64,000 bases of DNA, taken from positions 3,114,136 through 3,178,135 of the forward strand of contig NZ_FNLF01000002.1 in the NCBI RefSeq assembly GCF_900103175.1, in the 5' to 3' direction. Every line of letters begins with the position of its first letter. Position 1 is the stretch's first letter. This DNA comes from Tsukamurella pulmonis (GTDB taxonomy: Bacteria; Actinomycetota; Actinomycetes; Mycobacteriales; Mycobacteriaceae). Below the pieces are notes generated by a model. It worked only from the letters and a program-made list of their open reading frames with translations. It did not search any database and was not told the origin of the DNA. Positions 25,862-41,709 of this stretch are shown here, one piece after another. The position numbers and the translations under genes are program-made.

Positions 25862-25938
25862 GGGGCAGTAGCTCAGTCGGTTAGAGCCGCGGACTCATAA
25901 TCCGCTGGTCGCGGGTTCGAGCCCCGCCTGCCCCACCA
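25862..25938 (+). tRNA. tRNA-Met (anticodon CAT), element integration site
   Basis: Acceptor GGGGCAG pairs with CTGCCCC. The anticodon loop CTCATAA gives CAT. T stem GCGGG/CCCGC, T loop TTCGAGC, discriminator A, CCA encoded. The loop fits elongator tRNA-Met; tRNA-Ile2 with modified CAT is the alternative. The 3' half from the anticodon loop on is repeated twice downstream, at 38662 and 41710. Confidence 0.92.
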
Positions 25939-25939
25939 C
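25894..25939. repeat. att copy 1 (3' half of tRNA-Met)
   Basis: A 46-base segment from the anticodon loop to just past CCA. It matches 38662–38707 except for two positions, which form one T-stem pair (C-G here, T-A in the others). Confidence 0.9.
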
Positions 25940-25991
25940 ATCGCCGCAGGTAGCGGCCTGTTTCACCCAGCGTCGATTACTGGTCGCGCCG

Positions 25992-26015
25992 CCCGTGCTA
26001 CCCCCGTGCTACCCA
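25992..26015. repeat. Arm-type repeats near the left end of element A
   Basis: CCCGTGCTACCC occurs twice in a row, overlapping slightly. The second copy, ACCCCCGTGCTACCCA, is identical to 38504–38519 at the other end. Both copies lie inside the element within 110–200 bases of att, as arm-type integrase sites do. Confidence 0.5.
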
Positions 26016-26067
26016 AGGCGCGCGGGTTTGGGTAGGTCTCGCCGGTAGCGCGTGAGACGATCGGTCC

Positions 26068-26928
26068 ATGAGCGAAGAAGCGGCTGGAACTTGGCTACCG
26101 TTCGGCCTGGATGCTGACGACGAAGCCGGGTACTCTGCACTCCGCGAAGACGTTCCCGAGTGGCTGAGCCCATCTCTGTGGTCGTGGATCAAGACCGAGA
26201 TGTCCACCTACGGCGGCCAATTCAATCGAGAATCCGCGCGGGCCTGCGAGCGGGCTCTCAGAACGACCATCAACTACGACGGATACGTGCTCGACAACGG
26301 CGTCTACGCACTCAGGACCGCCTTTGGCGAATCTTCACTCGACACCTGGAAACTCGTTGATTTCCTTCTGTCGATCAGTCAAGTCGATGGCGGCTACATC
26401 CCTGAGTTGGAGCTAGACCAGATGCTCACGCAAAGCGGTAGCGCTTGGAGAGTTGGACTGCGCAGGGGCTCCACCGGCCTTGTGCGTCGCGTTCCCGAAG
26501 GAGTAGCCGACGCCGCCGAACGAGCATTTCAATATGGGGACGCGGGTCGCCGCCTCGCCAAGGCGTGGGAAGCGATCTACGGCCTAAGCCCCAATCCATC
26601 CAACGGATACAGCCTCGCAGTCAAAGCCGTCGAGGACGCGGTCATGCCGGTGGTGTCTCCAAACGATCAAACCGGGCATCTCGGTAAAGCTATCGGATCA
26701 ATCGCGAATGGAACTTGGACCCTTCCCCATCTACGGGAAGACACCCGCGCACCGTCACACGACGTGCTCGTTTCAATGATGCGGTTGCTCTGGGTCGGCC
26801 AGCACGACCGACACGGCGGCCCGTCCTCGGTCGGCGTACCGGAAGTCACGCAGCAGGAAGCCGAGTCGGCGATCGCGCTTGCCGTCACGCTCGTCGACTG
26901 GTTTTCGACCGGGAAGGTACAGCCGTAG
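26068..26928 (+). CDS. Abortive-infection C-terminal-like protein (cargo gene 1)
   Basis: A 286-residue soluble protein. The C-terminal half from about residue 165 (KAWEAIYGLSPNPSNGYSLA, VKAVEDAVMPVVSPNDQTGH, LLWVGQHDRHGG, AIALAVTLVDWFSTG) looks like the helical Abi_C domain (PF14355 type) found in phage-defence and abortive-infection proteins; RHG would be the key motif. The N-terminal half is unrecognised. The stop codon directly abuts the next gene's ATG. Its position between att and integrase is typical for defence cargo. GC is lower than in flanking chromosomal genes by eye. Confidence 0.6.
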   Translation: MSEEAAGTWLPFGLDADDEAGYSALREDVPEWLSPSLWSWIKTEMSTYGGQFNRESARACERALRTTINYDGYVLDNGVYALRTAFGESSLDTWKLVDFLLSISQVDGGYIPELELDQMLTQSGSAWRVGLRRGSTGLVRRVPEGVADAAERAFQYGDAGRRLAKAWEAIYGLSPNPSNGYSLAVKAVEDAVMPVVSPNDQTGHLGKAIGSIANGTWTLPHLREDTRAPSHDVLVSMMRLLWVGQHDRHGGPSSVGVPEVTQQEAESAIALAVTLVDWFSTGKVQP

Positions 26929-27726
26929 ATGACCGAGCCCTTGAAAGTGGAAGTGCTCAATAGCGCGTCATGGTGGTTGCCGTGGCTGCCCGTACTGGGA
27001 TCCCTGCTAGTTGCGGTTGCTGCCGTTATCGGTGTCGTGATCAACAACAGGACCAATCGTGACGCAATCGACGCGGCTAATGAGCGGGCCAATGACGACC
27101 GGTCGGACGCGGAACGCCGAGCGAATGAGGACCGCACAGCCGCCGAGAAGCGCGCGACAGACGATCGGGTCGAGGCTGCCAGACAAGCGGATGAGCGTGG
27201 CAAAGAAGACCGCGTTCGCGACTTTCGGACGTGGAAGCGTGATCGAATCCTAGAAATTGCCACCGACGTCGCGGAGTCGGCGATCGGGGCCGAGGATGAG
27301 TATCGGCGGATCGCATCCTCTCACGAAATTGACGCAAACTCAGTTGCGTCGTTTTCTAGGGTCGCTGACCTGACTCAGCGATGCGAGCACGCGGCAGCCA
27401 AGCTCTCGATAATCGGCGAGCACGATCTGGCTGAACTCGCACGAGCGCTACGAGTCGCTGCGAATGACGAAGAGCTTGTGCTGGCTGTCCATCGTATGAA
27501 TTTCATCCACCGTGAGAGGCGACGTTACGAGGGAGAGTCTGACGGCGACAGAGCGAGGCTCGGTGACGAGCGCGACGCACTCGCACCCTCCCTCGAGCAC
27601 CTCCTGCGGCAGGTAAACGAAGCTCGCGCCTACTTTCAAGCAGCGGCCGAGTCCGCTCTCAGAAGCACCACTCACCCAGCCGTGGAGCTAGACCTGGCGC
27701 CGCTACCTATCGTCCCCCGCGCATAG
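26929..27726 (+). CDS. Membrane-anchored coiled-coil protein (cargo gene 2)
   Basis: A 265-residue protein. One transmembrane helix near residues 15–40 (WLPWLPVLGSLLVAVAAVIG) is followed by a long charged coiled coil (about 45–100, repeats of ANERAN/AEKRAT/ARQADER) and a helical C-terminus. The ATG follows the previous stop with no gap, so the two genes form one unit. It overlaps the convergent integrase gene by 20 bases. It may be the membrane effector of a two-gene defence pair; that is inference. Confidence 0.65.
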   Translation: MTEPLKVEVLNSASWWLPWLPVLGSLLVAVAAVIGVVINNRTNRDAIDAANERANDDRSDAERRANEDRTAAEKRATDDRVEAARQADERGKEDRVRDFRTWKRDRILEIATDVAESAIGAEDEYRRIASSHEIDANSVASFSRVADLTQRCEHAAAKLSIIGEHDLAELARALRVAANDEELVLAVHRMNFIHRERRRYEGESDGDRARLGDERDALAPSLEHLLRQVNEARAYFQAAAESALRSTTHPAVELDLAPLPIVPRA

Positions 27727-29218
27727 CGACAACCTTTTGGATCAACTGCAGATTCGGAGCCGGAGCCGCCAGAGGACGAGTAAGGGGCGCTTGCTTGCCG
27801 CCTTCGGCCTCGGAGATGTAGTCGGCGTAGACGGTAAGTGTAGTAACGAATGATGCGTGGCCTAGCATCTTGCTGACCTGCATGTAGTGCTCCCCCGCCG
27901 ACAAGCTCAGCACCGCGAACGAATGCCGCAGGTCATGCCAGCGGGCGGGCGGTAGGTCGAGGGCAGCCAGGGCAGGCGCGTAGTACCGATTGGAGACGTT
28001 GTCGGTGTTGATCGGCTCCGTCCACTTGTAGGTAGCGGCGATCTCGGCTGCGCGGATCTCGGCTCGCTGCGCGGCCACTTCGGGGGTGTCGTCGTCTATG
28101 GGCGTCGGGTCGCCGAGCTGCACGCCTGCCAGCTTGGCCTCCGCGCGCGTCATCCGGCCGGGGAACAGCGGCGCGGACGGGTCCAACCGTCGCGGGTGCC
28201 CCGCGAGGTAGGTGCGCAGGTCGTCGGCCAGCCAGCCGTCCAGCGGGACCACGCGGGTGGACCTAACCGACTTGGGCGTGCCGGTCACCCACTCCCCTCC
28301 TTGGCGGGTCTTCGTCCGGCTGACCGAGACCATCCCCATCGCGCCCTTCTGGCGCGGCAACGTGACGTCGCCAATCTCCAGCCCACGCAATTCGCCGGCC
28401 CGGAGTCCCGTGTAGGCGCTGAACGTCACCGCCAGCGCGTACACCGGCTGGAGCTGCACCGTGGTCATGTAGTCGGCCACCGCTGCGATCTGCGCGGAGG
28501 TGAGCGGCAGCGCCTTGAAGTCACGCGGCTTGGCGTCGTCGCCTGTGGCGATCTGCGCGGTGCCAGCGTGACGCGGCAACGGCACCGAGTGCACCGGGTT
28601 CGCCTTCAATGCTCCGTCAATCACCGCCAGATCGAGGATGCGACGGAGGATGTCGTACGCCTTCTTCACCGTGGACCGGCTCAGCGTCACCATCTGCGGG
28701 GTACCGTCGGCGTTCAGCTTCGGCGTCGGGTTCCCGGATCGCGTGTCGGGGTTGCGGGCCGGACGCGGCGACAGCATCGCGGCGCGAAAGTGCCGTACGT
28801 CGGCAGCCGTGATCGTCGCGGTGGCCTTCTGCCCGAACGGTTCCGCCAGGTACCGCCGATAGATCGCCTCGCCCTCCTTGATGCTGCCTGGCTTCACGGT
28901 GCCCTGCTGCGACTTGAAGAATTCTGCCGCGTAGTGGCCCATCGGCAGGGTTCCCGCTACCCGCTGATCTGCGAGCTGGGAGACGGTGCCACTGTGCTTG
29001 GCGCTATTGAGCTCGTCGCGGCGCGCCTCGGCCAGCTCTCGCGTCGGGAACGTCTCCTGCCGGTTGGTCGTCTTCTTGCGTCCGTTCGGCTTCGCCGGGT
29101 CTACCGGAATCGGGAGGCCGTTCTCGTCGCGGACCAAGTCCTTGAACGTGACGCGGTAGGTCGCGACCGGCTTCCCGCGACGACGCTCGTTCGTCTCGTA
29201 CTTGGTGATCCACGCCAT
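27707..29218 (-). CDS. int: Tyrosine-type site-specific integrase of element A
   Basis: A 503-residue recombinase starting at ATG 29218. The N-terminal AP2-like/SAM-like parts precede a catalytic domain. TGLRAGELRGLEIGD holds the first Arg, HDLRHSFAVLSL the HxxR, and LGHASFVTTLTVYADY the second His and the Tyr nucleophile. It would integrate the element at the 3' half of tRNA-Met. It starts 2 bases after the resolvase stop, so both are in one operon. An unusual acidic insertion (PTPIDDDTPEVAAQRAEI) lies before the catalytic His. Confidence 0.92.
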   Translation of the reverse strand: MAWITKYETNERRRGKPVATYRVTFKDLVRDENGLPIPVDPAKPNGRKKTTNRQETFPTRELAEARRDELNSAKHSGTVSQLADQRVAGTLPMGHYAAEFFKSQQGTVKPGSIKEGEAIYRRYLAEPFGQKATATITAADVRHFRAAMLSPRPARNPDTRSGNPTPKLNADGTPQMVTLSRSTVKKAYDILRRILDLAVIDGALKANPVHSVPLPRHAGTAQIATGDDAKPRDFKALPLTSAQIAAVADYMTTVQLQPVYALAVTFSAYTGLRAGELRGLEIGDVTLPRQKGAMGMVSVSRTKTRQGGEWVTGTPKSVRSTRVVPLDGWLADDLRTYLAGHPRRLDPSAPLFPGRMTRAEAKLAGVQLGDPTPIDDDTPEVAAQRAEIRAAEIAATYKWTEPINTDNVSNRYYAPALAALDLPPARWHDLRHSFAVLSLSAGEHYMQVSKMLGHASFVTTLTVYADYISEAEGGKQAPLTRPLAAPAPNLQLIQKVVAMRGGR

Positions 29219-29220
29219 GA

Positions 29221-29850
29221 TCAGGCTGCCTTTCCGTTGATGCGGGCCAGGGCGCGTCTGACCGAGCTGTAGCTCCATTCGGTGCCGCCCTTGGCGGTGG
29301 GGATTCCCTCGTTGGTGAGCGTGCTGGCGATCGCCTTAGCGCCGAGCCCCTGCGCTGCGAGCACCTGGATGCGCCGCTGAGCCGAAACGCTGATGAGGCC
29401 GGGGTCGCCCTTGCTGCGCTTCTGGTCCAGGGCCTCGCGGGTGCGGGTGCCGATCTTGCGTCGTTCCTCTGCCGCCACCGCCAGGCGGACGTCCGCAACA
29501 AGACGCTGACTCGGGTCGCCGCTGTCTGCGCCCTCGCAGTCCAACAATCGCCAGCCGTAGTCGTTGGCTCGCTTCATGATCTGCGCGGCGTCCAGCTGGT
29601 CGCGGGTGACGCGGTCCAGAGCGCGAACGAGGAGTCCTTGCGCCACTCCCGATTCCACGGCTGCCACGGCGACCTCGCGCCCGAACATCGCGTCGTTCTT
29701 TGCGCCGCTGACCACGTCCGTCGTGACGGTGAGTAGTTCGTGGCCGCGAGCCGCGCACCACTGTGCGAGCGAATCGCGTTGCGCTTCGAGGCCGAGGCCG
29801 CTCTCGCCTTGCCTGTCCGTGCTCACTCGCACGTACCCGATGACTCTCAT
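29221..29850 (-). CDS. Small serine recombinase (resolvase/invertase family)
   Basis: A 209-residue protein from ATG 29850, with GAGGAGG upstream. The N-terminal catalytic domain begins MRVIGYVRVSTDRQ, with the nucleophilic Ser in RVST and conserved Arg in VRALDRVTRDQ. A C-terminal HTH (ISVSAQRRIQVLAAQGLG, AKAIASTLTNEGIPTAKGG) follows. It precedes int in the same operon. It could resolve dimers of the excised circle, or control inversion; the first is more usual. Confidence 0.9.
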   Translation of the reverse strand: MRVIGYVRVSTDRQGESGLGLEAQRDSLAQWCAARGHELLTVTTDVVSGAKNDAMFGREVAVAAVESGVAQGLLVRALDRVTRDQLDAAQIMKRANDYGWRLLDCEGADSGDPSQRLVADVRLAVAAEERRKIGTRTREALDQKRSKGDPGLISVSAQRRIQVLAAQGLGAKAIASTLTNEGIPTAKGGTEWSYSSVRRALARINGKAA

Positions 29851-30076
29851 CCGTTGCCTCCTCGCCTGCGGCGTCCGAGGGGTGCGGGCTGGGCCGCGCC
29901 CCTTGCACCCCACCTTACCTCGTACATACGTTCGATGATGTGGTGAATACTGCTGCGCTGTCGAGTGATTCGAGTACCGCTCAGCATCGTTGCAAGCGCT
30001 GACGCCACACACCCCACACCCGTGGGCCCAACTGCCCCGCCATGCCGCCCACGGGGTAGCCAGGCCGCCGGGATTG
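29851..30076. other. Intergenic region upstream of the resolvase–integrase operon
   Basis: 226 bases without a gene. It must hold the promoter of the recombinase operon and possibly a res site for the serine recombinase. CGTACATACG at 29921–29930 is the only short near-palindrome seen. No gene is evident. Confidence 0.4.
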
Positions 30077-30805
30077 CTACTTGGTGCGGCCCCGCCGTGT
30101 GCCTGTGGGCGCGGGCGGCGGCGTGGTGGCGCGGAGCTGCGCGAGGGCGGTCTCCATGTCCATCAGTCCCGTGTCGCGTGCTGTCGGGTTCGCCGGCTCC
30201 TCGCGGGGTCGCAGACGTGGCGTGGGTGCCTCGTCGTCCAGGTCGGTGGTCTGCGCGTCGACGATCTCACCTTCCAGCCAGTCGGTATTCGGGTCCTCGG
30301 CGTCGGGCACGCCACGCTCTGCGCGGGACGCTGCGCGGCTGCCACCAGACAGGACAGCTCCCAGGACGTCCTCGAACGCCTTGCTGGGACCCACCTCGAC
30401 CTCGACCGCGGTCTTGGCGCTGAGGCCTGCTCGGTCGAGCGCGTCCTTGATCGCGGCCAGCTTCACGTTGTCTGGAGCGTTGTCACTGACGGCTAGCTTT
30501 AACAGCTCCTTAGCCACGCGATCTGCGGCCATCTCCAGGCGGACGCGGGCAGCACGGCGCACATGCCCAGACGCGCCGCCATGAGCACGGCACACCGTCG
30601 CCCCTTGGATAGCTAACCTCCTGCATCGCTCGCCCGACTTCTTATGCGCCACACAGCGAGCGGCGTCGTTCTTCGCGAGCATCGCGTCCCACTCGGCTGC
30701 TGCCTCGGGCGACGTCCTCGGGCCGAGCTCCTCCCAGACCTCGAACTCGGGATCGTCGGGATCGGGTACCCATCGGCCTTCCATGCCGTCGATGTGCTGG
30801 CTCAT
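30077..30805 (-). CDS. Zinc-motif phage protein, terminase-small-subunit-like
   Basis: A 242-residue protein from ATG 30805. A Cys/His cluster near residues 50–76 (CVAHKKSGERCRR, then ATVCRAHGGASG) is common in actinophage proteins encoded near terminase or replication genes. It is followed by helical RVAKELLKLAVSDNAPDNVK and LAAIKDALDRAGL, similar to small-terminase helices, and an acidic disordered tail. In phage satellites a private TerS redirects packaging, which would fit here. The assignment is tentative. Confidence 0.5.
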   Translation of the reverse strand: MSQHIDGMEGRWVPDPDDPEFEVWEELGPRTSPEAAAEWDAMLAKNDAARCVAHKKSGERCRRLAIQGATVCRAHGGASGHVRRAARVRLEMAADRVAKELLKLAVSDNAPDNVKLAAIKDALDRAGLSAKTAVEVEVGPSKAFEDVLGAVLSGGSRAASRAERGVPDAEDPNTDWLEGEIVDAQTTDLDDEAPTPRLRPREEPANPTARDTGLMDMETALAQLRATTPPPAPTGTRRGRTK

Positions 30806-30880
30806 CCTCTTGTCCTTTCAAGCTGGATTCTGTTGCTGTCGAATGCCTCCAGGCCGTCTCTGCGCGGGCTGCGGGCAAAA

Positions 30881-31099
30881 CGGCCCCAAAAGCGGCCCCT
30901 TTAGGCCGGGGCCGTGGGGCCTTTTTGGCCCCCACGGCCCGCCCCGGTGCCTCACTGGTGGGCTGGGGCCTTTCCGGGCCTTTCCGGGGCCGATCCGAAA
31001 ACAAGCCGCTACCTGCACAAACATGCCGTCAAGCCAGATGGATCGGCCCCGAACGGCCCCAACGGGGCCGAGAAACCAAAACGGCCCCAAAACGGCCCC
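30881..31099. repeat. CGGCCCC repeat cluster and long hairpin, origin- or packaging-like
   Basis: CGGCCCC occurs at 30881, 30893, 31044, 31054, 31082 and 31093, and its complement GGGGCCG at 30908, 30986 and 31064: nine copies in about 220 bases, several followed by AAAA or preceded by AAAA/GAA. Around 30904–30957 a long hairpin forms (GGGCCGTGGGGCC, loop TTTTT, GGCCCCCACGGCCC). No gene lies here. It sits between the terminase-like and primase genes, where a replication origin or a pac site is expected. Confidence 0.6.
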
Positions 31100-31131
31100 G
31101 CCCCGCAAGCCGCTGGCCCCTGCACGCCGCC

Positions 31132-33399
31132 TCACGGTTCGTCACCCACGCCGAAGGTGATAGGCATCGCCCAGAGCTTCTTTCGCTCCATCCGGAGCAT
31201 CCCGGCGTCGAGCATCCGATCGACCTCTGCGGCGCGGGCCTCACCGCGGCCCTTCACGTCCTTGCTCGCCTTCACGGCGGTCTTGGTGAGCTGCCCCGGC
31301 TGTGCCTTGACCAGGTTGTAGATCTGCATCGTCAACGACGCCTGCGCTGCCTCGGGGCTGGACGCAACGGACGTCATCCGCGACACCGACCAGTCCACCG
31401 CAAGATCGACAGCTTCGCCTTCCTCCGCGCGGTCCATCTGATCAAGCGGAGGAAGTCGCCAGTTCACGTTCCACTGCCTGCCGCCCCACTGTCGGGAGCC
31501 GAACTGCACCTCCAGCGGGTATTCGCCCGTCTCCAGATTCGGGCCGTTGCGAGCGTGCCGCTGCACCCACCAGCTGTCGGCCCACGCGGACATCCCCGCA
31601 TAGCCGATGCTGTCCAGGTCGAGCTCCTTCGCGCCCTTGTTGAAGTGATCCGCCACGAGCAGCGCGGCTTCATCGCCAACGGTCTGTTCCCGGAACTCGG
31701 CCAGCATCGGGCCGCGCTCGTAGACATTCGCGGCATCCACGCCCTTCGGGTGGTAGGCGTACAGCGGGTCCAGAATCACGAGCTCGGGCTGCACTTCGTC
31801 CAGGTAGTGCCGCACCGCGCCAAGGAAGTCCGGACTGTCCAGCGGGGCCGACACATGCACCGCGTACAGCGGCAGCTCCGGGAGCGGCACGCCGTACCTC
31901 TTCGCGATGGCCTGGGTGCGCCGATGAAACAGGTTCCGTCCGCCCTCGCCGTTCAGGTAGAGAACCGGCCCCGGGGTGACGACCTCAAACTGATCGAGCA
32001 ACGGCGCACCGCTCGCGACCGCCAGAGCGAACGCGATCGCGTTGTACGACTTGAGCGTCTTCTTCGCTCCAGCGATGGGGCCGAACGAATTCCGAGGCCA
32101 TGCGCCGCGGATCAGCCACTCGATCGGCGGGATGGGGCGCGCCATCTCGGCAGCCCCAACAAGAGGGAACCGCTCCAGCACAGCGGAGACGCCAACCGAG
32201 TCTTCGTCGGAGGCGACTTCGGCGACCATGCCCCTGGACCGGGTGCCGTCCTCGTTGGCGATCCAGCCCGAACCCGGCCCCCAGATTCCGCCCGGCTCGA
32301 ACGCGCCGCCCGTGTAGAAGTCCAGCGCGACGTAGTCAGGATCGCCGGCGACGACTCTCAGCGCGCCCGTGAGCGACCTTTGGAACTCGTCCGGGTCGTG
32401 CCCTGCGGAGTCGCTCACCGCCTCAAACAGCGCCTCCACGGTGATCAGCGCGGTGCGCACGCCGGGTTCGCCCTTCGCGCCGAGCCGGACCAGGCCGAGC
32501 GTCGCGGAGTTCATGGTCGAGTGGCGGTCTGCGCCGTCCTCGATCGCCGCCTCCACCTCGCGGACCTTCCCGGCGACCGCAGTGCTCATCGCGCCACTAC
32601 GGAACCCATCGAGAACTGCCTGCCCCTCGGACGGACTGCCCTTCTGGTGGACTGGCGACGCCACGGGTGCCTCCGGCAGGACGGAAGTGAGCTCGGCGAC
32701 GTCCAGCCATCCGGCGTCCGCGTTCACGTAGCCTCGCGCAGGCACCGGCTCATCAGGGACTTTCCAGTTGGTTGATCCGGGGCACCGCAGCACGCGGTCG
32801 ATGTTGAAGATCGAGTCCACGTGCCCTTTGGGGTTGATCTCGGCGGCAACCTGCCGCACCAGAGCCGCCCATCGCGCGCTGATCGTCTTCCAGGCCACCG
32901 CACCGTCGGTGATGAGCGGCGCATCACGCACTCTCCAGATTGGTTGGAGTCCGTGCCCGCTCTCGATCACCACGACAGGCGCGCATCCCAGCACAGCGGT
33001 CAGCTTCTCGACCACCTGCTCACACTCCGACAGCGACGCCAGTCCCTTGTCCTTCACGTCGGGGGTGACCACGTCCAGGTCCACGTACAGCGCGATGCCA
33101 CGCGCTACGTCTGCCTCGCCACCCTTGCGCGAGACGCCCGGCTCCAGGGTCAGCGGGTTCGGTGAGAACCACACGTTGACATCGTCGGGCGACGACCACC
33201 CTTGTCCCAGGTGCTCGACGCGGACCGTCCGTCCCCGAAAGGCCGTCTTGTCGTCTGGATCCTGGGTGCACACACTGACCACGGCGTCGTCCGCGTGACC
33301 GAGTGCTCGAAGTACGTCGTAGAGATCGACAGAGCTGTCGCCAAATCTGTACGACGGCAATGGAATACTGTCCAGATCGGAGTTGGTTGTATGCTTCAT
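31132..33399 (-). CDS. Primase-helicase fusion of element A
   Basis: A 755-residue replication protein. The N-terminal part resembles an archaeo-eukaryotic-type primase/polymerase, with YVDLDVV at 105–111, IESGHGLQPIW and VLRCPGSTNWK. The C-terminal part is a RecA-like ATPase of the RepA/AAA_25 kind, with a Walker A variant GAKKTLKS near residue 443, Walker B-like LVILDPLYAYH and LLVADHFNKG. This pairing is standard for phage satellites and integrative plasmids. A winged-helix-like tail ends the protein. It is the largest gene of element A. Confidence 0.8.
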   Translation of the reverse strand: MKHTTNSDLDSIPLPSYRFGDSSVDLYDVLRALGHADDAVVSVCTQDPDDKTAFRGRTVRVEHLGQGWSSPDDVNVWFSPNPLTLEPGVSRKGGEADVARGIALYVDLDVVTPDVKDKGLASLSECEQVVEKLTAVLGCAPVVVIESGHGLQPIWRVRDAPLITDGAVAWKTISARWAALVRQVAAEINPKGHVDSIFNIDRVLRCPGSTNWKVPDEPVPARGYVNADAGWLDVAELTSVLPEAPVASPVHQKGSPSEGQAVLDGFRSGAMSTAVAGKVREVEAAIEDGADRHSTMNSATLGLVRLGAKGEPGVRTALITVEALFEAVSDSAGHDPDEFQRSLTGALRVVAGDPDYVALDFYTGGAFEPGGIWGPGSGWIANEDGTRSRGMVAEVASDEDSVGVSAVLERFPLVGAAEMARPIPPIEWLIRGAWPRNSFGPIAGAKKTLKSYNAIAFALAVASGAPLLDQFEVVTPGPVLYLNGEGGRNLFHRRTQAIAKRYGVPLPELPLYAVHVSAPLDSPDFLGAVRHYLDEVQPELVILDPLYAYHPKGVDAANVYERGPMLAEFREQTVGDEAALLVADHFNKGAKELDLDSIGYAGMSAWADSWWVQRHARNGPNLETGEYPLEVQFGSRQWGGRQWNVNWRLPPLDQMDRAEEGEAVDLAVDWSVSRMTSVASSPEAAQASLTMQIYNLVKAQPGQLTKTAVKASKDVKGRGEARAAEVDRMLDAGMLRMERKKLWAMPITFGVGDEP

Positions 33400-33419
33400 G
33401 TACAGCCTTTTGGGTTGTG

Positions 33420-33444
33420 ATATCGGTTGCCCTACAACCGATAT
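33420..33444. promoter_or_regulatory. Perfect inverted repeat before the primase-helicase gene
   Basis: ATATCGGTTG-N5-CAACCGATAT, 21 bases upstream of the start at 33399. Related GGTTGTAT and GGTTGTGAT half-sites lie at about 33384 and 33413. It is a likely operator for an element regulator, or replication iterons. Confidence 0.55.
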
Positions 33445-33450
33445 GGATGG

Positions 33451-33753
33451 TCAGCTCAGCTGACCGAGGGACGAGCTTCGCTCTCCTGACGGAACAGAAC
33501 ACCCGGTCGGGACGGCCTCGAGGACAGCGTTCTCGGGGTCGTCCGTTCGTTTCGAGCAGACGCACGCGGCCTCCAGGCCGACGCCAGCCGTTGACGCGCC
33601 CACGGTGGCCCCGTTACCGCCAGCCGCACCGCTACGTCCGACCAGCGAGACGCTGGCCCGCCGCACGGTTACCACCACAGCGCCAGCGATCTGGCCCAAC
33701 GTCCATCCGGAGAGGCCAAGCACGGCCGCGCTCACCAGCGCTTCGGCGGTCAT
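33451..33753 (-). CDS. Small membrane protein, 100 aa
   Basis: It starts at ATG 33753, sharing one base with the stop of the upstream gene (TGATG). One hydrophobic segment near residues 4–28 (LVSAAVLGLSGWTLGQIAGA) is followed by a Gly/Ala/Val-rich middle and a tail with two CxC-like Cys. Unrecognised. Confidence 0.6.
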   Translation of the reverse strand: MTAEALVSAAVLGLSGWTLGQIAGAVVVTVRRASVSLVGRSGAAGGNGATVGASTAGVGLEAACVCSKRTDDPENAVLEAVPTGCSVPSGERSSSLGQLS

Positions 33754-34556
33754 CACCAGAACCTCTGATCGGGGTAGCCGACGGACGCAAGATATCCGTC
33801 GGATCGGCCGGCGATCCAGTCCACGCGAACCGGGATGCCCTCCTCTACGAGGCGCTCCACCTCCTTGGAGATGGACGACCGGCAGCCCTCGCAGCCTGGG
33901 AGCACATACATGGTCCCGCCGGAGTCGACGAGCAGGAAGTCGTCCAGCCCGCGCGAGTTGCACTGCGTGACATGACAGAAGGCGCATTCCCGGACGATGA
34001 GGTGCTTGGCGACGTACTGCGCGAGCCTGTAGCCGGTCCAACATCCGGGGACGACCAAGAACTCGTAGTTGCCCTCGTGACCTCCGGCGAGGACCACCGT
34101 CTTGATCGCCGAGCCGCCTTGCTCGGCGGCCTCTACCGCAAGCGGATAGGTCTCCAGGTCGTGGGCGAACTTCGCGCCCTCGTCGCGCGCCAGCGCATCC
34201 TTGTGCGTCTTGGTCCGTATCTGCTGCTCCGTGGGGCGATACTTCGCTCGTAGGCTCATCGGTCGCCTACCGGTGTTCGTGTGGAAGAAGTTCCACGGCA
34301 TGCCCATGCTCTGCATGGACGGCGCGAGACGTAGTTCGTCCCTTGCCATTCGCACCCGCGCCAGGTAGCTAGCCGCGCCGTCCGAGAACCTGGTGCGCTT
34401 GTTCTTGTGAGGCCCCTCGCCTGCGTCCATCACGGTCACGTACCGGTCGCACGCCGCGCGAGACATGGCACGCAGGGCGGGATCGTCATACTCGCGGTCA
34501 AACAGGGCCGGGACCGTGTGCCACCAATCAGACGGATCAGGAACGGGGGCGCTCAT
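33753..34556 (-). CDS. Cys-rich protein of unknown function, 267 aa
   Basis: It starts at ATG 34556, overlapping the AlpA-like gene by 4 bases. It contains VRECAFCHVTQCNSRGLDDF and VLPGCEGCRSS, a pattern of three Cys pairs that probably binds zinc. WWHTVPALFDREYDDPAL opens the protein. It lies in the regulator–replication operon of element A. No known family is recognised. Confidence 0.65.
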   Translation of the reverse strand: MSAPVPDPSDWWHTVPALFDREYDDPALRAMSRAACDRYVTVMDAGEGPHKNKRTRFSDGAASYLARVRMARDELRLAPSMQSMGMPWNFFHTNTGRRPMSLRAKYRPTEQQIRTKTHKDALARDEGAKFAHDLETYPLAVEAAEQGGSAIKTVVLAGGHEGNYEFLVVPGCWTGYRLAQYVAKHLIVRECAFCHVTQCNSRGLDDFLLVDSGGTMYVLPGCEGCRSSISKEVERLVEEGIPVRVDWIAGRSDGYLASVGYPDQRFW

Positions 34557-34861
34557 CGCTGGGCCTCCTGACCGCCAGATGCCAAGGACTCCAGGAAGTC
34601 CCAGATATCCCTGTCGGCGTACCAGAGGTGGCCGGAAATGACGAACCGACGCAGCTCGCCATCTTGGCTGCCATTCTTGATGCGAGTTGGAGAGATGCCG
34701 CGGACGCCGAGCTCGTCGAGGAAATCCAGGACGCCAGGGATGCCCTTCCGTGTCGGGATGTTGGACAGCTCGTCGCGATTGATCACGCGTCGCTGAGAAC
34801 GCGGTGGCGCGACGGACTGCGCGGGGTCGCGGGTTACCCGCGATTGGGTGAGCTGACTCAT
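34553..34861 (-). CDS. AlpA/excisionase-like HTH protein
   Basis: A 102-residue protein. The C-terminal half, ISPTRIKNGSQDGELRRFVI then HLWYADRDIWDFLESL, has the shape of an AlpA/MerR-like winged HTH used as excisionase or activator in satellites. It heads the operon running into the primase-helicase. CAGGAA-type half-sites stand directly upstream of its start. Confidence 0.6.
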   Translation of the reverse strand: MSQLTQSRVTRDPAQSVAPPRSQRRVINRDELSNIPTRKGIPGVLDFLDELGVRGISPTRIKNGSQDGELRRFVISGHLWYADRDIWDFLESLASGGQEAQR

Positions 34862-34863
34862 CG

Positions 34864-34918
34864 TCAGGAACCTTCCTTGAAGTAAGGATTCCTGAGATGC
34901 GCAGCACGTCAGGAATCC
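34864..34918. promoter_or_regulatory. TCAGGAA operator array before the AlpA-like gene
   Basis: TCAGGAACCTT at 34864–34874 and AAGGATTCCTGA at 34884–34895 form an inverted repeat with one extra base. A third half-site TCAGGAATCC follows at 34909–34918. The first overlaps the ribosome site of the AlpA-like gene, as expected for repressor control. Confidence 0.5.
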
Positions 34919-35336
34919 ATCAACAGATGGGGAACCTGGGCGCGGTCTACTGTTTCGGTCGGCCCTTGCTGGCGCTGCTACTGCTCATAGATCAGTGCTC
35001 GGTGATCGATACTCGTCACTGCATCCACCCGTCGGCAGTCCCACGGCTCGCTTTCGCGAGGATGCGCTTTGCGTTACGCCGGGTCTGACCCGTACGGGCC
35101 GGTTTGGCGTAGTTGCCACTATACACACGGCAGCCGCTACCGCCAGGGGTGCAGCGCGCTGTAATCCACTCCATTGCAAGGACTTACGGCGATGTGGCCC
35201 GCGAGAACACTCGCTAACTGAATTTCGCCCACGCTAATAGGCGGCTTCCTGCCGTCCAGCGGCCCCGTGGACGCTCTCGCGTCGTGCACGGGTAGGGCTG
35301 GTCGCGATCGAGAAGTCAACTGACAACCCTCGTCCG
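34919..35336. other. Intergenic region between AlpA-like and XRE genes
   Basis: About 420 bases with no gene I can support. An open frame at 35137–35319 (-) lacks a ribosome site and recognisable product. The region probably contains the promoter of the AlpA-like operon. Confidence 0.4.
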
Positions 35337-35603
35337 CTACTCCGAAATGAGCGGTAGTCCGTCCATCAGCGCGCCAGGTGTGGTGTCGAGGCCGTGTGCG
35401 AGCTTGAGGATGGAGTCAATCCGGCTGCTGCGCTGCCCGCGTTCGGCGCGGGCGTAGTAGCTCCAGTGCACGCCAGCCTTCGCGGCGGCAGCTTCTTGCG
35501 ACAGTCCCAGCTCCTCGCGGCGGGCGCGTAGCCGTCGACCGAACTCCACCACGGCGGGCGTGGGCGGCGTCGGTTCGGTAGCTGGACTCATGGCAGCATC
35601 CAC
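35337..35603 (-). CDS. XRE-family repressor
   Basis: Up to 88 residues from GTG 35603, or 84 from ATG 35591; neither has a strong ribosome site. The HTH is clear: FGRRLRARREELGLSQEAAA, then AGVHWSYYARAERGQR and LKLAHGLDTTPGALM. It is a Cro/CI-type DNA-binding protein, probably the master repressor of element A. It is divergent from the lipoprotein gene at 35728; GGACC-N10-GGTCC in the gap is a possible operator. Confidence 0.85.
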   Translation of the reverse strand: MDAAMSPATEPTPPTPAVVEFGRRLRARREELGLSQEAAAAKAGVHWSYYARAERGQRSSRIDSILKLAHGLDTTPGALMDGLPLISE

Positions 35604-35727
35604 TACATCGGGTTGCGGCCAGACGGACCAGAGCCAATCGGTCCACGGCCAAACGGTTTAGTATTCGACTCCAGCCGGAATGTCCGGCATGTCGGGCATG
35701 ACCTGCCCGATCCAGAAGGAGGCGCAG

Positions 35728-36093
35728 ATGCGCGGATGGAAGCTGGCCGGAGTCGGCGTGGCGGTGGGAGCGACGATCCTGGCGGGGTGTGGCGGCGGAG
35801 CTGACCGCGCGTCAGCGGAAGCGGTCGCCGCGAAATGCAAGAACAGTGACAGCTTCCCCACGCTGTCGGAGGACAAGAAGTCGATCGACTTCAATCTCTA
35901 CTCACGCAGCCAGGGCGCTGAGGATGCCTTCAATTGCATTCTCAAGGAGACTGGCGCTCCATCGAGTGTGAGCTCAAAGGTGAAGCAGACCCGACCGATC
36001 GATGGGACCCAGACCACAAAGTGGGACGGCTGGGAGCTGAGCTGGAGCTATTCGGGCAGCGGCCCGATGAAACTCATCTTCGAACAGGTCTGA
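35728..36093 (+). CDS. Small lipoprotein of element A
   Basis: A 121-residue protein from ATG 35728, with GAAGGAGG upstream. The signal MRGWKLAGVGVAVGATILAGC ends in the lipobox ILAGC, shown here as VGVAVGATILAGC. The mature domain is about 100 residues with two Cys (AAKCKNSD, AFNCIL). It is transcribed alone and opposite to most of the element, next to the repressor, so it may be expressed in the integrated state. This position suits a superinfection-exclusion lipoprotein; there is no direct evidence. Confidence 0.75.
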   Translation: MRGWKLAGVGVAVGATILAGCGGGADRASAEAVAAKCKNSDSFPTLSEDKKSIDFNLYSRSQGAEDAFNCILKETGAPSSVSSKVKQTRPIDGTQTTKWDGWELSWSYSGSGPMKLIFEQV

Positions 36094-36119
36094 GCTTCGC
36101 GCCTCCAGCCGAACAGACG

Positions 36120-36160
36120 AGAAGCCCGCCATCTCCGGTCCAAGGAGATGGCGGGCTTCC
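36120..36160 (+). terminator. Strong terminator after the lipoprotein gene
   Basis: GAAGCCCGCCATCTCC, a short loop and GGAGATGGCGGGCTTC form a 16-pair stem, followed by CGTT. It could work on both strands and also ends the capsid operon side. Confidence 0.75.
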
Positions 36161-36458
36161 GTTGCGGAGAGGGCCGAGCCTGGTCCTCATTCCGCACCGC
36201 GCCGGACAAGTCGACGGCGCGCGGCACTGGACAAGTCGACAGTGCCGTCGGTGAGCGGGGAACTCACCGAGTCTGTCGCCGGGGCACTGCTCCGGCTCGC
36301 TGTGTAGTTGTAGGGTGGCAGGCTGCCGCGTGGCGGCTCAACCCGCTATCGCTGGCCCCTGCCCCTCGCAGTGGCTGCCTGCGCGGGGTGGGTGGCCCCA
36401 CGGGCTACCGGCTGCCGCGTCAACGCTGTGCGTCCGATTTGGTTCGGATCGCCGGCGA
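36161..36458. other. Non-coding stretch between terminator and capsid operon end
   Basis: About 300 bases with repeats of CTGCC/GGCAG and GCTGCCGCGT (36323 and 36410 areas) but no supported gene. Confidence 0.35.
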
Positions 36459-36845
36459 TCATCGCCGCACCTTCGTGCCTGCTGCCGCGCTGCGACGTGC
36501 AGGGTTCGCCCGCGCGGTGACCGTGAGCTTGCGCTGCGCCTTGTCCAGCGAGGGCGTGACGTCCACCCGGCGATCAGGTCGCCCGTGAACGCCGACGATG
36601 CCCTTGACCAGGACTCCACGACCGGCGGGCGATCGGAACTCGGCCCCGATCTTCACGCCCTTGTAGTCGCCGCCCTGGCCTACGGTCAGGTGCTTCTCGA
36701 AGCTGCCCTTCACATAGGCGTTGCTCACCGCGCCGGTCGCCTTCTTGCCCGCGTTCGCCGTTGCCGCCTTCGTGGAACTGGCGACCTTCGACCCCGCTCC
36801 CGCGAACCGGCCGAACCGATCACGGCGCTGCACTCGGCGGCTCAT
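36459..36845 (-). CDS. Basic protein after the capsid gene, 128 aa
   Basis: It starts at ATG 36845, overlapping the previous gene by 4 bases. The N-terminus RRVQRRDRFGRFAGAGSKVA resembles the RDRFGRF motif found at the start of many phage minor head and tail proteins. The rest is Lys/Arg-rich with KLTVTARANPARR. It is probably a structural or DNA-binding accessory of the capsid module. Confidence 0.6.
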   Translation of the reverse strand: MSRRVQRRDRFGRFAGAGSKVASSTKAATANAGKKATGAVSNAYVKGSFEKHLTVGQGGDYKGVKIGAEFRSPAGRGVLVKGIVGVHGRPDRRVDVTPSLDKAQRKLTVTARANPARRSAAAGTKVRR

Positions 36846-37081
36846 CTCTGACCGCCCTGCAGTCGGTCGCGGCGCGGTCGCCGCTCGGCCAGCTCGTCAG
36901 TGAGGGCACGCAGACCTTCGAGTTCCTCGGCGCGGGGAGTCTTACCGCGATACATCCCTCCCTGCGAAGGTGGAGCATCCGCGAGTTTGGGAGGCGTCAG
37001 ACCCGGTCCCCAGCTGAACTCTCCAGGCTCCAGTTCGGGGAGGTCGTGCTGGTGATCGCCAGCGAGCGGCCCGCCTGACAT
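36842..37081 (-). CDS. Small protein in the capsid operon, 79 aa
   Basis: It starts at ATG 37081, sharing one base with the capsid stop (TAATG). Pro/Gly-rich: ELEPGEFSWGPGLTPPKLAD, with a charged C-terminus EELEGLRALTDELAERRPR. Unrecognised, but the coupling on both sides argues that it is real. Confidence 0.6.
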   Translation of the reverse strand: MSGGPLAGDHQHDLPELEPGEFSWGPGLTPPKLADAPPSQGGMYRGKTPRAEELEGLRALTDELAERRPRRDRLQGGQR

Positions 37082-38250
37082 TACGACCATTCCCACTCCG
37101 GAATATCGTAGTTTCCGCTTGCCTTGACTTGGATCACGCAAGCAGCCCCGCGATAGCGCGTGCCCACGCCGAATGAGCGCTGGAAATAGCTATCCTGAAG
37201 GGGGTACGGACCATTTCCGGGAATCATTCGCAGACCGCGGTACGCAGGATTCTGATGCTCGCGGAATGCAATCGGATTCACGGAACTGCCAGGTCCACCA
37301 CTCGCGATTACCGCCAAATACCCCTGCGGCACCCAGTAGGAGGGCAGGATCCATGTGGGTCCGTAGCTGCCGATGCACTCGACGCCGTGGAACTCACCTG
37401 GTGCGACTTCTCCTACCACGTTCTGGGCAGCCAGGTAGGCGGGACTATTGGAGGACGGAACGAAATCCCAGCGCGAGACGATGCCGTTGTACTCGCCGCC
37501 TGCGCGCCACTCCCGCATCTGATCGGCTTCATGCGGGTGTGCGAGCACGACCAGCCGAGCATTTGGTGTAGTGCCGAAGCCCTTGTCGCGTACCTTGTTG
37601 ACGGCGTCGACGATGTCCATCGGATCGACATCGGTATTCGAAGAGACAAGGTAATGCGAGTCGGTGCCGTTGAAGTTTTGGCCCGAGAATGAAGGAGGAA
37701 CAGTGCCGTCGCCGTTGTAGAGTCCAAAACAGTTACTGCCGTATTCGTTGACCTCTTGGGTCGGGTCGAAAAGGCGACGAAGAATAGTTCCGGAGACAAG
37801 TCGATTGTCAGCTTCGAACGCCCTATCGACCACGGATCGCACCTGCGATGCGGTTGCTGACCTCAAGAATTTCCACGAAAAGCGGCTAGCAAGATCGTGA
37901 TCAGCAAAAGTGTTCCCGAGAATGAGGGCATTGGGCTCCGCGCGGAGACCCTCTGGTTCTCCAAATTCGCTTGCCAGTTCGAATTTGTCGCCGCCGATTG
38001 TCTGTGGGATAGCCGAGGCGGGATCGGTTGTGGAATAGGAGATCAGCGACGCGAGCGACGACCGTTGCTTGTTCCACATCGACATGGCGGCAGAGGCTTC
38101 GTCCCAGATCTGCTCAAGGGAGATTCCGTCGGCGGTCTGATTGACGAGGACGTCGGCCTCGGTCGAGTATCCCTTTGCGGTGTCGCCGCCGAAAGCGAAC
38201 AGTTCGTCGCGAAGCTCGCGGAGGTCGGGCGGGGTGAGCGTGGCGTTCAT
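37081..38250 (-). CDS. Putative major capsid protein of element A
   Basis: A 389-residue protein from ATG 38250, with GGAGAAAT upstream. LRELRDELFAFGGDTAKGY, DPASAIPQTIGGDKFELASE, DKGFGTTPNARLVVLAHPHE and the C-terminal RYRGAACVIQVKASGNYDIP look like an HK97-type major capsid protein of actinophages without a long N-terminal delta domain. It heads a three-gene coupled operon. No protease, portal or scaffold is nearby. An encapsulin-like shell is a less likely alternative. Confidence 0.65.
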   Translation of the reverse strand: MNATLTPPDLRELRDELFAFGGDTAKGYSTEADVLVNQTADGISLEQIWDEASAAMSMWNKQRSSLASLISYSTTDPASAIPQTIGGDKFELASEFGEPEGLRAEPNALILGNTFADHDLASRFSWKFLRSATASQVRSVVDRAFEADNRLVSGTILRRLFDPTQEVNEYGSNCFGLYNGDGTVPPSFSGQNFNGTDSHYLVSSNTDVDPMDIVDAVNKVRDKGFGTTPNARLVVLAHPHEADQMREWRAGGEYNGIVSRWDFVPSSNSPAYLAAQNVVGEVAPGEFHGVECIGSYGPTWILPSYWVPQGYLAVIASGGPGSSVNPIAFREHQNPAYRGLRMIPGNGPYPLQDSYFQRSFGVGTRYRGAACVIQVKASGNYDIPEWEWS

Positions 38251-38661
38251 GGATTTCTCCGTTCGGTAGAAGTGGCTGGATTCGTCGGGGCTCTTTCTCG
38301 ACGACGCCGGTCTCTGACCAAGCGGATGAATTGCGCGTTGCGCGGTGAATCTGAAGTGCGACAGCTGCGACCTCGGGTCGTGGGCCGCTGCGGGTACTGC
38401 CCGGTTGCGGCGTGCTGGCTGCTGCCACCGTACGCCCACCGTCCGACCAGCGGCCAGCGCGCGCAGGGGAGCCGGCGAATCGCTGATCGGGCAGTGCCAT
38501 GCCACCCCCGTGCTACCCACCGGCGCTAGTTTGGCGGTGCGCCAGCGGTGGCCGCTAGTGCTCAAACGGTGGGCAGTTCTGGCCTCTCACCTGCAAGTCT
38601 GCGGAATCACCAATCGCATCATGGCTGGTGGCGTATCTCGGACAACGGCTTAACGTACGCC
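38251..38661. other. Right end of element A, non-coding
   Basis: About 410 bases between the capsid gene and att copy 2. No gene is supported. It contains the arm-type repeat ACCCCCGTGCTACCCA at 38504–38519 and must hold the promoter of the capsid operon. Confidence 0.45.
38504..38519. repeat. Arm-type repeat near the right end of element A
   Basis: ACCCCCGTGCTACCCA, identical to 26000–26015, in the same orientation, about 140 bases inside att copy 2. Confidence 0.5.
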
Positions 38662-39517
38662 CTCATAATCCGCTGGTCGTGGGTTCGAGCCCCACCTGCC
38701 CCACCACGTTGACCTGCACGAGCCGCCCGGCTCGGCAGCTTCGCGAGGTTCGGATTCGGCCTCGTGGTTGCAGATTGGTTGCCTTCGGCCTCCGAAGTAC
38801 TTTCGGGGGCCTTCTTCGTGCGCGGGACCAGGCCGGCGGCTGCCTCGGCCGCCTGTTGCCCCACGCCCTCGAGGAGGTGGCTGTAGGTGTCGCTCGTGAT
38901 CGAGATCGACGAGTGCCCGAGCCGCTTCGAGACGACCGCGATCGGCACGCCGGCCGCGAGCATGAGCGACGCCTGGCCGTGCCGGAGGTCGTGCAGCCGC
39001 ACCCGGCGCAGCCCGGCGGCGTCCGTGAGGCGGTAGAACGCCGCGGTCACGTCGCTCGGTGGGATCGGCGAGCCGTCCTCGCGCGCGAAGACCAGGCCGT
39101 GGTCGCTGTAGGCGTCGGCCCAGGCGTCCCGCTCGCCTTGCTGCGCGAGTTGCTGGCCGAGCAGCACGCCGACGGTGCCGTGGTCGAGGTCGACGCGCCG
39201 CGCCTCGCCGCTGGCGGTCTTGGGCGGGCCGAACCGGTACGCACGGTGCTCGCCGCCGCAGAACGGGCACACCACGCCAGACCCGTCGATCTCGACGACC
39301 TGCTGGCGCACGATGATGACGCCGCGCACGAGGTCGATGTCATCCCAGCGCAGGCCCACCAGCTCGCCGCGGCGGAGCCCGGTGTACGCGGCCACCTCGA
39401 ACAGCGGGCCGAGCCGGTCGCCCTGCACGTGGTCAAGGAACTGGCCGAGCTCGTCGGCCTCCCAGGGCCGCACGCGCGGCCGGGACGCCCGCGGCAGCTC
39501 GACGTTCTCGGCGGCGT
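38619..39517 (-). pseudogene. int: Integrase of element B, N-terminus lost
   Basis: The catalytic domain is intact: TGLRRGELVGLRWDDID (Arg), LHDLRHGQASLM (HxxR) and LGHSSISITSDTYSHL (His and Tyr). A PFCGGEHRAY insertion adds a zinc-knuckle-like pair. The N-terminal core-binding and arm-binding parts are missing; the homology stops near 39517, where the next gene begins on the other strand. The tail after KKAPESTSEAEG runs through att copy 2 and is not native. Probably inactive. Confidence 0.8.
38662..38707. repeat. att copy 2, shared by elements A and B
   Basis: Repeats the 3' half of tRNA-Met, from the anticodon loop through CCA. The T stem is GTGGG/CCCAC. It forms the right end of A and the left end of B. 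Confidence 0.9.
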
Positions 39518-39536
39518 TGAACGAAGGACCACCACC

Positions 39537-40265
39537 ATGCCCCGTCAGCTCCACACCCTCATGCGCCAGGTTCTCGCGGCCGCCCAGGCCCGCAACAACG
39601 CCGCCGCATCGTACGTCAACGACCCGATGCTGTCCGAGGCCGGCAACCGTCAGGCACGCGCCCGCCTGGCCGAACAGGCAAAGGCGGCATTCGATCTCAC
39701 CATGGACGAGGTTCTCGAATCCGCCTCCCGGAAGGTCACCACGGAGGTCTTCACGAAGGCCCTTGAGCACCGCCCGCCCTTCAATCGGAACGACCCGGCT
39801 GCGGCCATCATCACCGCCCAGGCGTGGCAGTTCAACGTGCTCCCCCGCCTCGAGCGCGGCGAGCAGCTCGTCGACGTGCTCAAGGCCGCCGACACCGACG
39901 CCGTTCTCGGCGCCGAGCGATTCGCGCCCGCGTACCTGTCCGGTCCACGAGGCTCCGGCTTGAACGCCATCTTCTACGACGCCACCGACGACGTCGCTCG
40001 GGCCGTCACCGGCCGGTTCATCGGCCTGGCCGACAGCCCTGAGGCAGCAGCGGCGATCGAGGAGGCGGAGCACTTCCACGACGACTTTGACGCGCTGCTA
40101 CGGACTGTCCAGCTTGTCCGCCGGGGCGACACTGCCTCAGCCATAGAGGCGGCAACCCTCGTCGGGAGCACGATCGCCGAAGCCGCGCCCGACGCCCGCC
40201 CCGAGGGCGACGACGCGGCCGGTGCCGGTGGCGCCAGCGAGAGCGTCGGCGAGAGCTCCGCGTAG
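39537..40265 (+). CDS. Helical phage-type protein, 242 aa
   Basis: It starts at ATG 39537, with GAAGGA upstream. Mostly helical: MRQVLAAAQARNNAAASYV, ARARLAEQAKAAFDLTMDEV, EEAEHFHDDFDALLRTVQLV. The last 30 residues are an acidic, Gly/Ala-rich tail. The family is not recognised. It starts exactly where the integrase homology ends, so a deletion or recombination junction is likely. Confidence 0.65.
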   Translation: MPRQLHTLMRQVLAAAQARNNAAASYVNDPMLSEAGNRQARARLAEQAKAAFDLTMDEVLESASRKVTTEVFTKALEHRPPFNRNDPAAAIITAQAWQFNVLPRLERGEQLVDVLKAADTDAVLGAERFAPAYLSGPRGSGLNAIFYDATDDVARAVTGRFIGLADSPEAAAAIEEAEHFHDDFDALLRTVQLVRRGDTASAIEAATLVGSTIAEAAPDARPEGDDAAGAGGASESVGESSA

Positions 40266-40335
40266 ATGGTGCGCGGACAGCGCCCCGCCGAGGTGAACCT
40301 CGACGGGGCGCTCCAGCGTGTGCGATCGTCGAATC

Positions 40336-40623: not shown

Positions 40624-40628
40624 ATGAG

Positions 40629-41494: not shown

Positions 41495-41709
41495 CAGCCA
41501 GCCTCCTTCTTAAACCGGGCATGCCGACACGATATTCGCAACCCGCCCGACCGGGCACCGATCCCGTCGAAGTGGTTGCAAAGTGGTTGCGCAATGATCG
41601 TCGACTCCCCTCCATGACCACCTACCGCGCACCACCGCGCCCCCTGTGACCTGCCCCGGTTCGCTATGGGCGAGGATCGTCATCGACATCCGGCGACGGT
41701 GAATCCTCA

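Follow-up and report, generated by a model that had tools for sequence, protein, structure and literature searches.

Classical phage-inducible chromosomal islands (PICIs) and Staphylococcus aureus pathogenicity islands (SaPIs) carry an integrase, AlpA-like and repressor regulators, a primase and a small terminase subunit (TerS). An integrase, an XRE-family regulator, a primase and a TerS are found in the 12.8-kb integrative element of Tsukamurella pulmonis described here, together with a gene for a major capsid protein (MCP); a further gene was labelled AlpA-like by eye, a label that Pfam does not confirm. The element lies in a stretch of 64,000 nucleotides (contig NZ_FNLF01000002.1, positions 3,114,136 to 3,178,135 of the forward strand; the whole stretch is called the window, and positions refer to it) and is bounded by a 46-bp direct repeat (25894-25939 and 38662-38707, 96% identical). 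It is probably an integrative satellite of siphophages related to phage Patience, with a particle completed by the helper. The sequence basis of this assignment is the tRNA integration site, the element's own integrase and primase-helicase, an MCP and a TerS homologous to proteins of one phage group, and a small gene with the motif of the phage protein gp1.

Satellites with a lone capsid gene are already known. In SaPIbov5 the lone MCP homologue, Ccm, is the sole satellite protein needed to convert the prolate heads of phage phi12 into T=4 heads, which it does by taking up the pentamer positions (PMC8569155). This is the closest working precedent for the present element. Ccm, however, has an HK97-type delta domain and belongs to cos-type islands of Staphylococcus, whereas here a Patience-related MCP is accompanied by TerS and a gp1-like gene. 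Capsid-forming PICIs (cfPICIs) likewise have their own capsid gene and need a helper for other parts, but they encode MCP, protease, portal, connectors and both terminase subunits (PMC10690885). Profiles for the large terminase subunit (TerL), portal and protease matched none of the 80 satellite-side loci analysed here and nothing in the window element (for connectors the test was by tblastn alone, as part of the phage gene set). The Streptomyces satellites MulchRoom and MiniFlayer are similar in being actinobacterial, in having virulent helpers and in having their own capsid, but they carry TerL, portal and scaffold genes and no recognisable primase (PMC10690885).

Candidate PICIs of Mycobacterium, including phiRv1 and phiRv2, are defined by integration machinery and an MCP gene. 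Some are found at tRNA genes, their capsids are said to be highly diverse, and some carry helicase, terminase or scaffold genes (PMC10654092). In the sense of that paper the present element is a candidate PICI, being a phage-like region with an integration gene and an MCP gene that is not an intact prophage. The paper covers Mycobacteriaceae and a few Hoyosella. Its main text does not contain the words Patience, Adjutor, Send513, Papyrus, "cluster R", portal or Tsukamurella, and some Mycobacterium loci of the present family may well be among its data sets. The initial annotation of the window, made from the letters alone, had set the element apart from known capsid-carrying satellites as these usually keep more of the head module. 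This contrast was too strong, because lone-capsid and integrase-plus-capsid satellites (SaPIbov5 with Ccm and the Mycobacterium candidate PICIs) had already been published. A literature search with most subscription papers and supplements outside its range found, to judge from titles, abstract openings and excerpts, no recognisable satellite family with a Patience-related capsid and no recognisable Tsukamurella satellites.

Patience and Adjutor share with the element the MCP fold and homologues of TerS (Patience gp3) and of gp1, but they are full T=7 phages of 64.5-70.5 kb with a scaffold, a minor capsid protein and gp4 (PMC10635136, excerpts). No satellite match to gp4 was obtained; since that search detected gp4 in no more than 2 of the 84 phage loci, the negative says little.

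Major capsid protein

The 389-residue product of the gene at 37081..38250 (minus strand) was assigned as the MCP. Its profile match (phrog_3990, 1.8e-102), its homology to phage proteins and its fold, compared by VIA-align, all point to the MCP of Patience and Adjutor. A capsid-like operon had been proposed initially, with the fold of this product as the check, and the product does fold as the capsid protein of a named phage group. The claim made here is one of fold and of sequence kinship to the Patience/Adjutor MCP, not of membership of the metal-site structural group (see below). The reading frame can be extended to 494 residues with a TTG start, and the methionine of the 389-residue form is the alignment start for two Tsukamurella relatives. 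The ratio of nonsynonymous to synonymous substitution rates (dN/dS) is 0.04-0.125 for the 12 closest pairs among the matches listed, which suggests that the MCP is kept under strong selection. A quick tree was calculated from 69 satellite MCPs (window included) and 84 phage MCPs, with 12 fragmentary satellite MCPs omitted. Repeated capture would not be needed to account for the satellite MCPs, and a single origin is not proven.

The window element was compared with two other Tsukamurella elements. The region 38199-38498, at the start of the MCP gene and upstream of it, is 92-95% identical and the small genes s99 and s128 are 79-90% identical, while the MCP shows values of 59-68%. Measured in 50-base steps, identity falls from the MCP stop (37050-37100) onwards and recovers at about 38150-38200, inside the first 20-30 codons. 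The G+C content of the MCP gene is 58.5%, compared with 65% for the element. As the drop is confined to the MCP, nearly the whole of its coding sequence was exchanged, and the first codons, the leader and the coupled genes stayed. For the conserved leader upstream of the MCP (38251..38498, minus strand) we infer a role as promoter, arm sites or packaging signal.

The alignment column that best separates satellite from phage MCPs corresponds to residue 74 of the window protein, which is T in 59 of 69 satellites and V in 80 of 84 phages. It aligns with Val73 of Patience, at which the E-loop becomes straight as it crosses the split hexamer (PMC10635136). The p-values for E-loop enrichment are illustrative only, with ranges picked after the columns had been seen and phylogeny ignored. 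A three-histidine metal site in the A domain is reported to be conserved in Patience-related MCPs (PMC10635136). The corresponding positions in the window MCP read D-H-D-K, and the site is lost here and in 26 other satellite MCPs. All three histidines are present in 42/69 satellite and 76/84 phage MCPs, and 8 phage MCPs are also without the site. With 42 of the 69 keeping it, the idea that satellites in general have lost the metal site was rejected.

Elsewhere in this genome there is a second homologue of the MCP, with 44% identity (L055:5920-7618; G000:C2, about 1740097). It breaks off at query residue 341, where integrase-like sequence takes over, close to a tRNA-Gly. To judge from this arrangement, it is a satellite remnant.

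Small terminase subunit and small genes

The window TerS (30077..30805, minus strand) gives weak matches on its own (phrog_2538, 0.006; phrog_10899, 0.0069). Among 46 aligned homologues, satellite and phage sequences mixed, 37 match phrog_10899 and 15 match phrog_2538, both named "terminase small subunit". The satellite TerS profile matches Patience gp3, annotated as terminase small subunit (1.6e-23), and Gumball gp2 (3.1e-27, close kin of Gumball gp2 being in the profile), so the terminase-small-like protein of the initial annotation is borne out through its relatives. With this profile, homologues were found in 17/78 phage contigs, in each case upstream of TerL, and in 3 of 6 reference phages. 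Among the phage contigs with at least 800 bp before TerL, the figure is 17 of 27.

The gene s99 (36842..37141, minus strand), with a motif of the type SEFSWGPGLxPP, overlaps or adjoins the MCP end. It is present in 47/80 loci, and all 48 copies (with that of the window) share the strand of the MCP. Since the in-frame ATGs fall at the MCP stop, translation probably begins at 37081-37090. A tblastn search against phages gave no credible match (best E 0.4), and the strict pattern SEFSWGxGLxPP occurs in none of 84 phage loci, Gumball not being among them. In a comparison by hhalign, s99 matches the N-terminus of the Patience-related gp1 with a probability of 96.6% (E 6.5e-10 for that single comparison). 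In the reverse search from gp1, 26 of the 27 matches listed are satellite s99 frames (E 5e-5 to 0.02) and the remaining one is a training row. At an E limit of 1, gp1 was found in 64 phage records, 63 of Mycobacterium and one of Nocardia, and not in phages of Gordonia or Microbacterium. The MCP search likewise gave 63 Mycobacterium records and one of Nocardia, an agreement by host-genus tally. Three satellite genes, those for MCP, TerS and s99, are thus akin to genes of a single phage group, that of Patience. In Patience (L222:1-351) and related mycobacteriophages gp1 is the first gene, with a motif of the SEFSWGPG type, and in several of them it is near TerS.

The gene s128 (36459..36845, minus strand) encodes a basic protein of 128 residues and has a 4-base overlap with the preceding gene. 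It was found in 18/80 satellite-side loci and in none of 78 phage contigs, with dN/dS of 0.04-0.23 in 9 pairs. Its N-terminus resembles phage basic KRDxxGRFA proteins, with 10 matches in 8 of 84 phage loci (shuffled mean 1.0), 7 of them between portal and protease; the motif is too short to claim homology with s128.

Related elements

The MCP is present in 48 of 401 genomes of the family Mycobacteriaceae and in 12 of 31 genera. A first scan of the genome collection with the single MCP protein gave 19 pattern matches and no relative. The scan of a GTDB-wide collection with an MCP alignment yielded 81 relatives; 80 of them, representing 78 distinct loci, were retained. They span Tsukamurella, Gordonia, Williamsia, Mycobacterium, Mycolicibacterium, Rhodococcus, Nocardia and Hoyosella, and also Micromonospora, Microbacterium, Demequina, Nocardioides and others. 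The scan patterns were derived from chromosomal MCPs and could favour satellites; the same alignment in IMG/VR (177 matches, 80 kept) still found mostly full phages: in a tblastn survey, 78 of the 80 contigs had one or more phage structural genes in addition to the MCP. The IMG/VR contigs L136 and L137 show satellite genes and were counted with the satellites thereafter, a choice made after they had been seen.

Among the 78 chromosomal loci the tblastn survey gave a single tape-measure-like match, in L109, and nothing for the other structural classes tested; in 20 extra loci it gave none of these classes. Structural profiles were trained on half of the phage rows and tested on the 80 satellite-side loci, out to about 10 kb from the MCP in either direction, and on held-out phage contigs. 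The profiles for TerL, portal, protease, scaffold, major tail, chaperone and the two genes flanking the MCP matched no satellite-side locus, and the tape-measure profile matched one. In the held-out contigs the recovery was 38/39 for the gene before the MCP, 46/49 for scaffold, 33/44 for protease, 40/72 for the gene after the MCP, 27/51 for major tail, 26/52 for portal and 20/58 for TerL; these contigs are fragments, and distant genes are often beyond reach in such counts. Full tail and terminase modules in close relatives, which the initial annotation had named as the mark of a deleted prophage, are thus absent within this distance of the capsid in all 80 loci, bar the one tape-measure-like match. 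Nine elements bounded on both sides were also scanned by open reading frame (118 of 145 picked frames; two elements and two short frames were left out). The MCP and the resolvase were found in all nine, with integrases and primases (PHROG and Pfam), and there is no portal, large terminase or tail among the best 25 of 84 PHROG and 25 of 34 Pfam families.

The profile counts in the 80 satellite-side loci, some of which are cut by contig ends, are 64 for resolvase, 62 for TerS, 56 each for integrase and primase, 48 for the AlpA-like protein, 47 for s99 and 18 each for s128 and XRE. At least one of TerS, resolvase and integrase is present in 75 loci, the exceptions being L065, L081, L095, L098 and L117. 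The gene order varies (the MCP is divergent from the primase in several) and the gene set persists. Initially a search for the same gene set at tRNA-Met in other Mycobacteriales had been proposed; the relatives are integrated at a variety of tRNA genes (for Leu, Arg, Gly, Lys and other amino acids), and tRNA-Met is just one of these sites. From 100 loci examined, not all distinct, 24 distinct elements bounded by tRNA repeats were obtained, with sizes of 8.5-13.7 kb (22 of them 11.0-13.7 kb); five rest on repeats of 21-30 bp, and the method is blind to elements much over 20 kb. Candidates without a tRNA, the ambiguous L070 and the second copies L038 and L064 were left out of this set. Two satellites of the family (L059 and L063) are found about 85 kb apart on one contig of Tsukamurella conjunctivitidis, with different gene orders. 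In general, the island appears to be one of a large actinobacterial family of phage parasites that keep a single shell protein and usually a selector for DNA packaging.

Borders and gene content of the element

The integration site is a tRNA-Met gene (25862..25938, plus strand, ARAGORN), the 3' part of which forms the 46-bp attL (25894..25939, plus strand); attR is at 38662..38707 (plus strand). From the capsid end the gene order is MCP, s99, s128, XRE, AlpA-like, unknown, primase-helicase, TerS, resolvase and integrase, mostly on the minus strand. The XRE-family regulator (35337..35603, minus) matches HTH_3 (8.4e-13). The 102-residue AlpA/excisionase-like regulator (34553..34861, minus), a label given by eye, has no Pfam match at E ≤ 1, though its family recurs as counted above, and the label is not confirmed. 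It is followed by a 267-residue protein with no function assigned (33753..34556, minus, family in 18/80 loci), the 755-residue primase-helicase (31132..33399, minus; phrog_2478 4.5e-32, AAA_25 3.6e-24), and, beyond TerS, the serine resolvase (29221..29850, minus; PF00239 2.3e-27) and the tyrosine integrase (27707..29218, minus; PF00589 4.8e-10), the starts of the last two being picked by eye. The integrase, resolvase, primase-helicase and XRE regulator had all been named initially, and the matches agree.

Two cargo genes adjoin attL on the plus strand. The first encodes a 286-residue protein of unassigned function (26068..26928, relatives in 2/80 loci) with no match of note in Pfam, PADLOC or NCBIfam. 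The second encodes a 265-residue protein (26929..27726, relatives in 4/80 loci) with, by eye, a hydrophobic start and a charged coil-like stretch; its sole match is a weak one to PADLOC PDC-S05 (E 0.0026). One further cargo gene, for a small putative lipoprotein recognised by eye from its sequence (35680..36093, plus strand), has relatives in 2/80 loci. None of the cargo genes could be named from PADLOC or NCBIfam. Scans of 13 genes (Pfam, PHROG, PADLOC, NCBIfam) and the profiles revealed no large terminase, portal, tail or lysis gene, as had been noted at the outset. The element is therefore an integrative mobile element, with att repeats and an integrase, in which no virion genes were found besides MCP and TerS, as in a satellite.

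Between primase and TerS (30876-31099) there are repeated CAAAACGGCCCC units and an inverted repeat (30976-30996/31040-31060), a candidate replication origin or packaging site. A 23-bp repeat, CCGTGCTACCCCCGTGCTACCCA (91%), is present inside both ends (25993-26015 and 38497-38519), and similar sequence is found near the ends of other satellites; the two copies are probably integrase arm sites. The tRNA-Met site also carries a second, tandem element of about 3 kb (38662-41752). It encodes a tyrosine integrase of its own (38709-40079, minus strand) and is bounded by a third near-copy of the att repeat at about 41709-41752.

Proposed life cycle and alternative explanations

In the case of a satellite, infection by a Patience-related phage would cause the element to excise and replicate. 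The satellite MCP would enter the head assembly run by the helper scaffold, portal and protease, with the formation of small heads, either all of satellite MCP or mixed, as in SaPIbov5 with Ccm. The satellite TerS would steer the helper large terminase to satellite DNA, helper tails would complete the particle, and the serine resolvase would resolve multimers. Of the initial suggestion of a compact actinobacterial satellite that builds a shell and borrows the rest from a helper, the satellite type and the borrowing are supported; by analogy with Ccm, a shell mixed with helper capsid protein is as plausible as an own shell. According to genome-size statistics, T=3 heads hold 8.1-17.1 kb and T=4 heads 13.2-24.5 kb, and P4 (11.6 kb) uses T=4 (PMC7762592, excerpts); on these figures a 12-kb genome would fit T=3 or lie near T=4. 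All hexamers can be split only if T is not a multiple of three, and all-split hexamers therefore exclude T=3 (PMC10635136).

A more far-reaching version is put forward tentatively. An old, actinobacteria-wide satellite family would own a dedicated MCP lineage, distinct from that of the phages, which, with TerS and the gp1-like peptide, replaces the helper shell outright. The changes at the E-loop base (and, in the window's clade, the loss of the metal site) would lead not to the split hexamers of the T=7 helpers but to a head of small size (T=3 or T=4). The MCP alleles would be swapped between elements to match the helper.

Several observations weigh against the satellite reading as a whole. 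Helper, particle and shell geometry are predicted from gene content. Of the 81 satellite-side MCPs, 12 are fragmentary (contig ends, stops or frame breaks), and therefore some copies are dead. In the tree, satellite and phage MCPs are split by a single branch with a support of only 34. Only 2 of the 80 kept IMG/VR contigs are of the satellite type, and at 62.1 and 49.2 kb neither is a short virion-like genome. TerS is present in 62/80 and s128 in 18/80 loci, with the contig ends as a partial limit, and TerS was not found in 10 of the 27 phage contigs with room upstream of TerL. A search of the host genome with Patience TerL, run without a positive control, was empty. From this result, together with Send513, which has no integrase among its annotated features, and the weak matches of the MCP-neighbour-gene profile, we infer virulent helpers. 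The profile matches concern 7/401 genomes of the family. Each is weak (E 1e-4 to 8.5e-4), incomplete and located within a long frame, and none is at an MCP place (this search, too, had no positive control); set beside the 48 of 401 genomes with the MCP, they speak for the satellite reading.

It is unlikely that the MCP is instead an interference weapon which poisons helper head assembly and protects the host, the element not being packaged in heads of its own. Such a role would agree with the MCP being kept alone, without scaffold or portal, with the allele exchange, which fits an arms race, and with possible defence cargo in relatives (e.g. single matches to EcoRI methylase and GmrSD_N). However, TerS, whose phage homologue is a packaging gene, accompanies the MCP in 62/80 loci, and pure interference needs neither this gene nor the narrow size of the bounded elements. 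Slightly less likely still is headful packaging of a five-copy concatemer (about 64 kb) in T=7 heads of full size, with the resolvase producing monomers and the MCP altering only head stability or specificity. The resolvase family is found in 64/80 loci, 5 x 12.8 kb is close to the 64.5 kb of Adjutor, and other satellites reportedly pack several copies into heads of unchanged size (PMC11389934, excerpts), but this would leave unexplained an own MCP apparently kept under strong selection. A helper-independent nanocompartment or transfer agent of the encapsulin type is very doubtful; in the fold comparison by VIA-align, on which this rests, encapsulin ranks far below the phage capsids. A decayed prophage, which the few remaining virion genes and the broken copies (the truncated L055 in the same genome, the fragmentary MCPs) might suggest, is highly improbable and was rejected, because the same gene subset recurs in 78 loci and many genera, no locus of the 80 keeps another head gene, no full prophage with this MCP is among the loci kept from the genome collection, and the dN/dS values indicate purifying selection: the element is real and not a relic.

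With the satellite reading, many small actinobacterial islands are tied to one phage group with a solved capsid structure, which makes helper, particle and shell geometry directly testable. A T=7 phage and a 12-kb satellite with one capsid fold would be a natural experiment on how the same protein sets head size.

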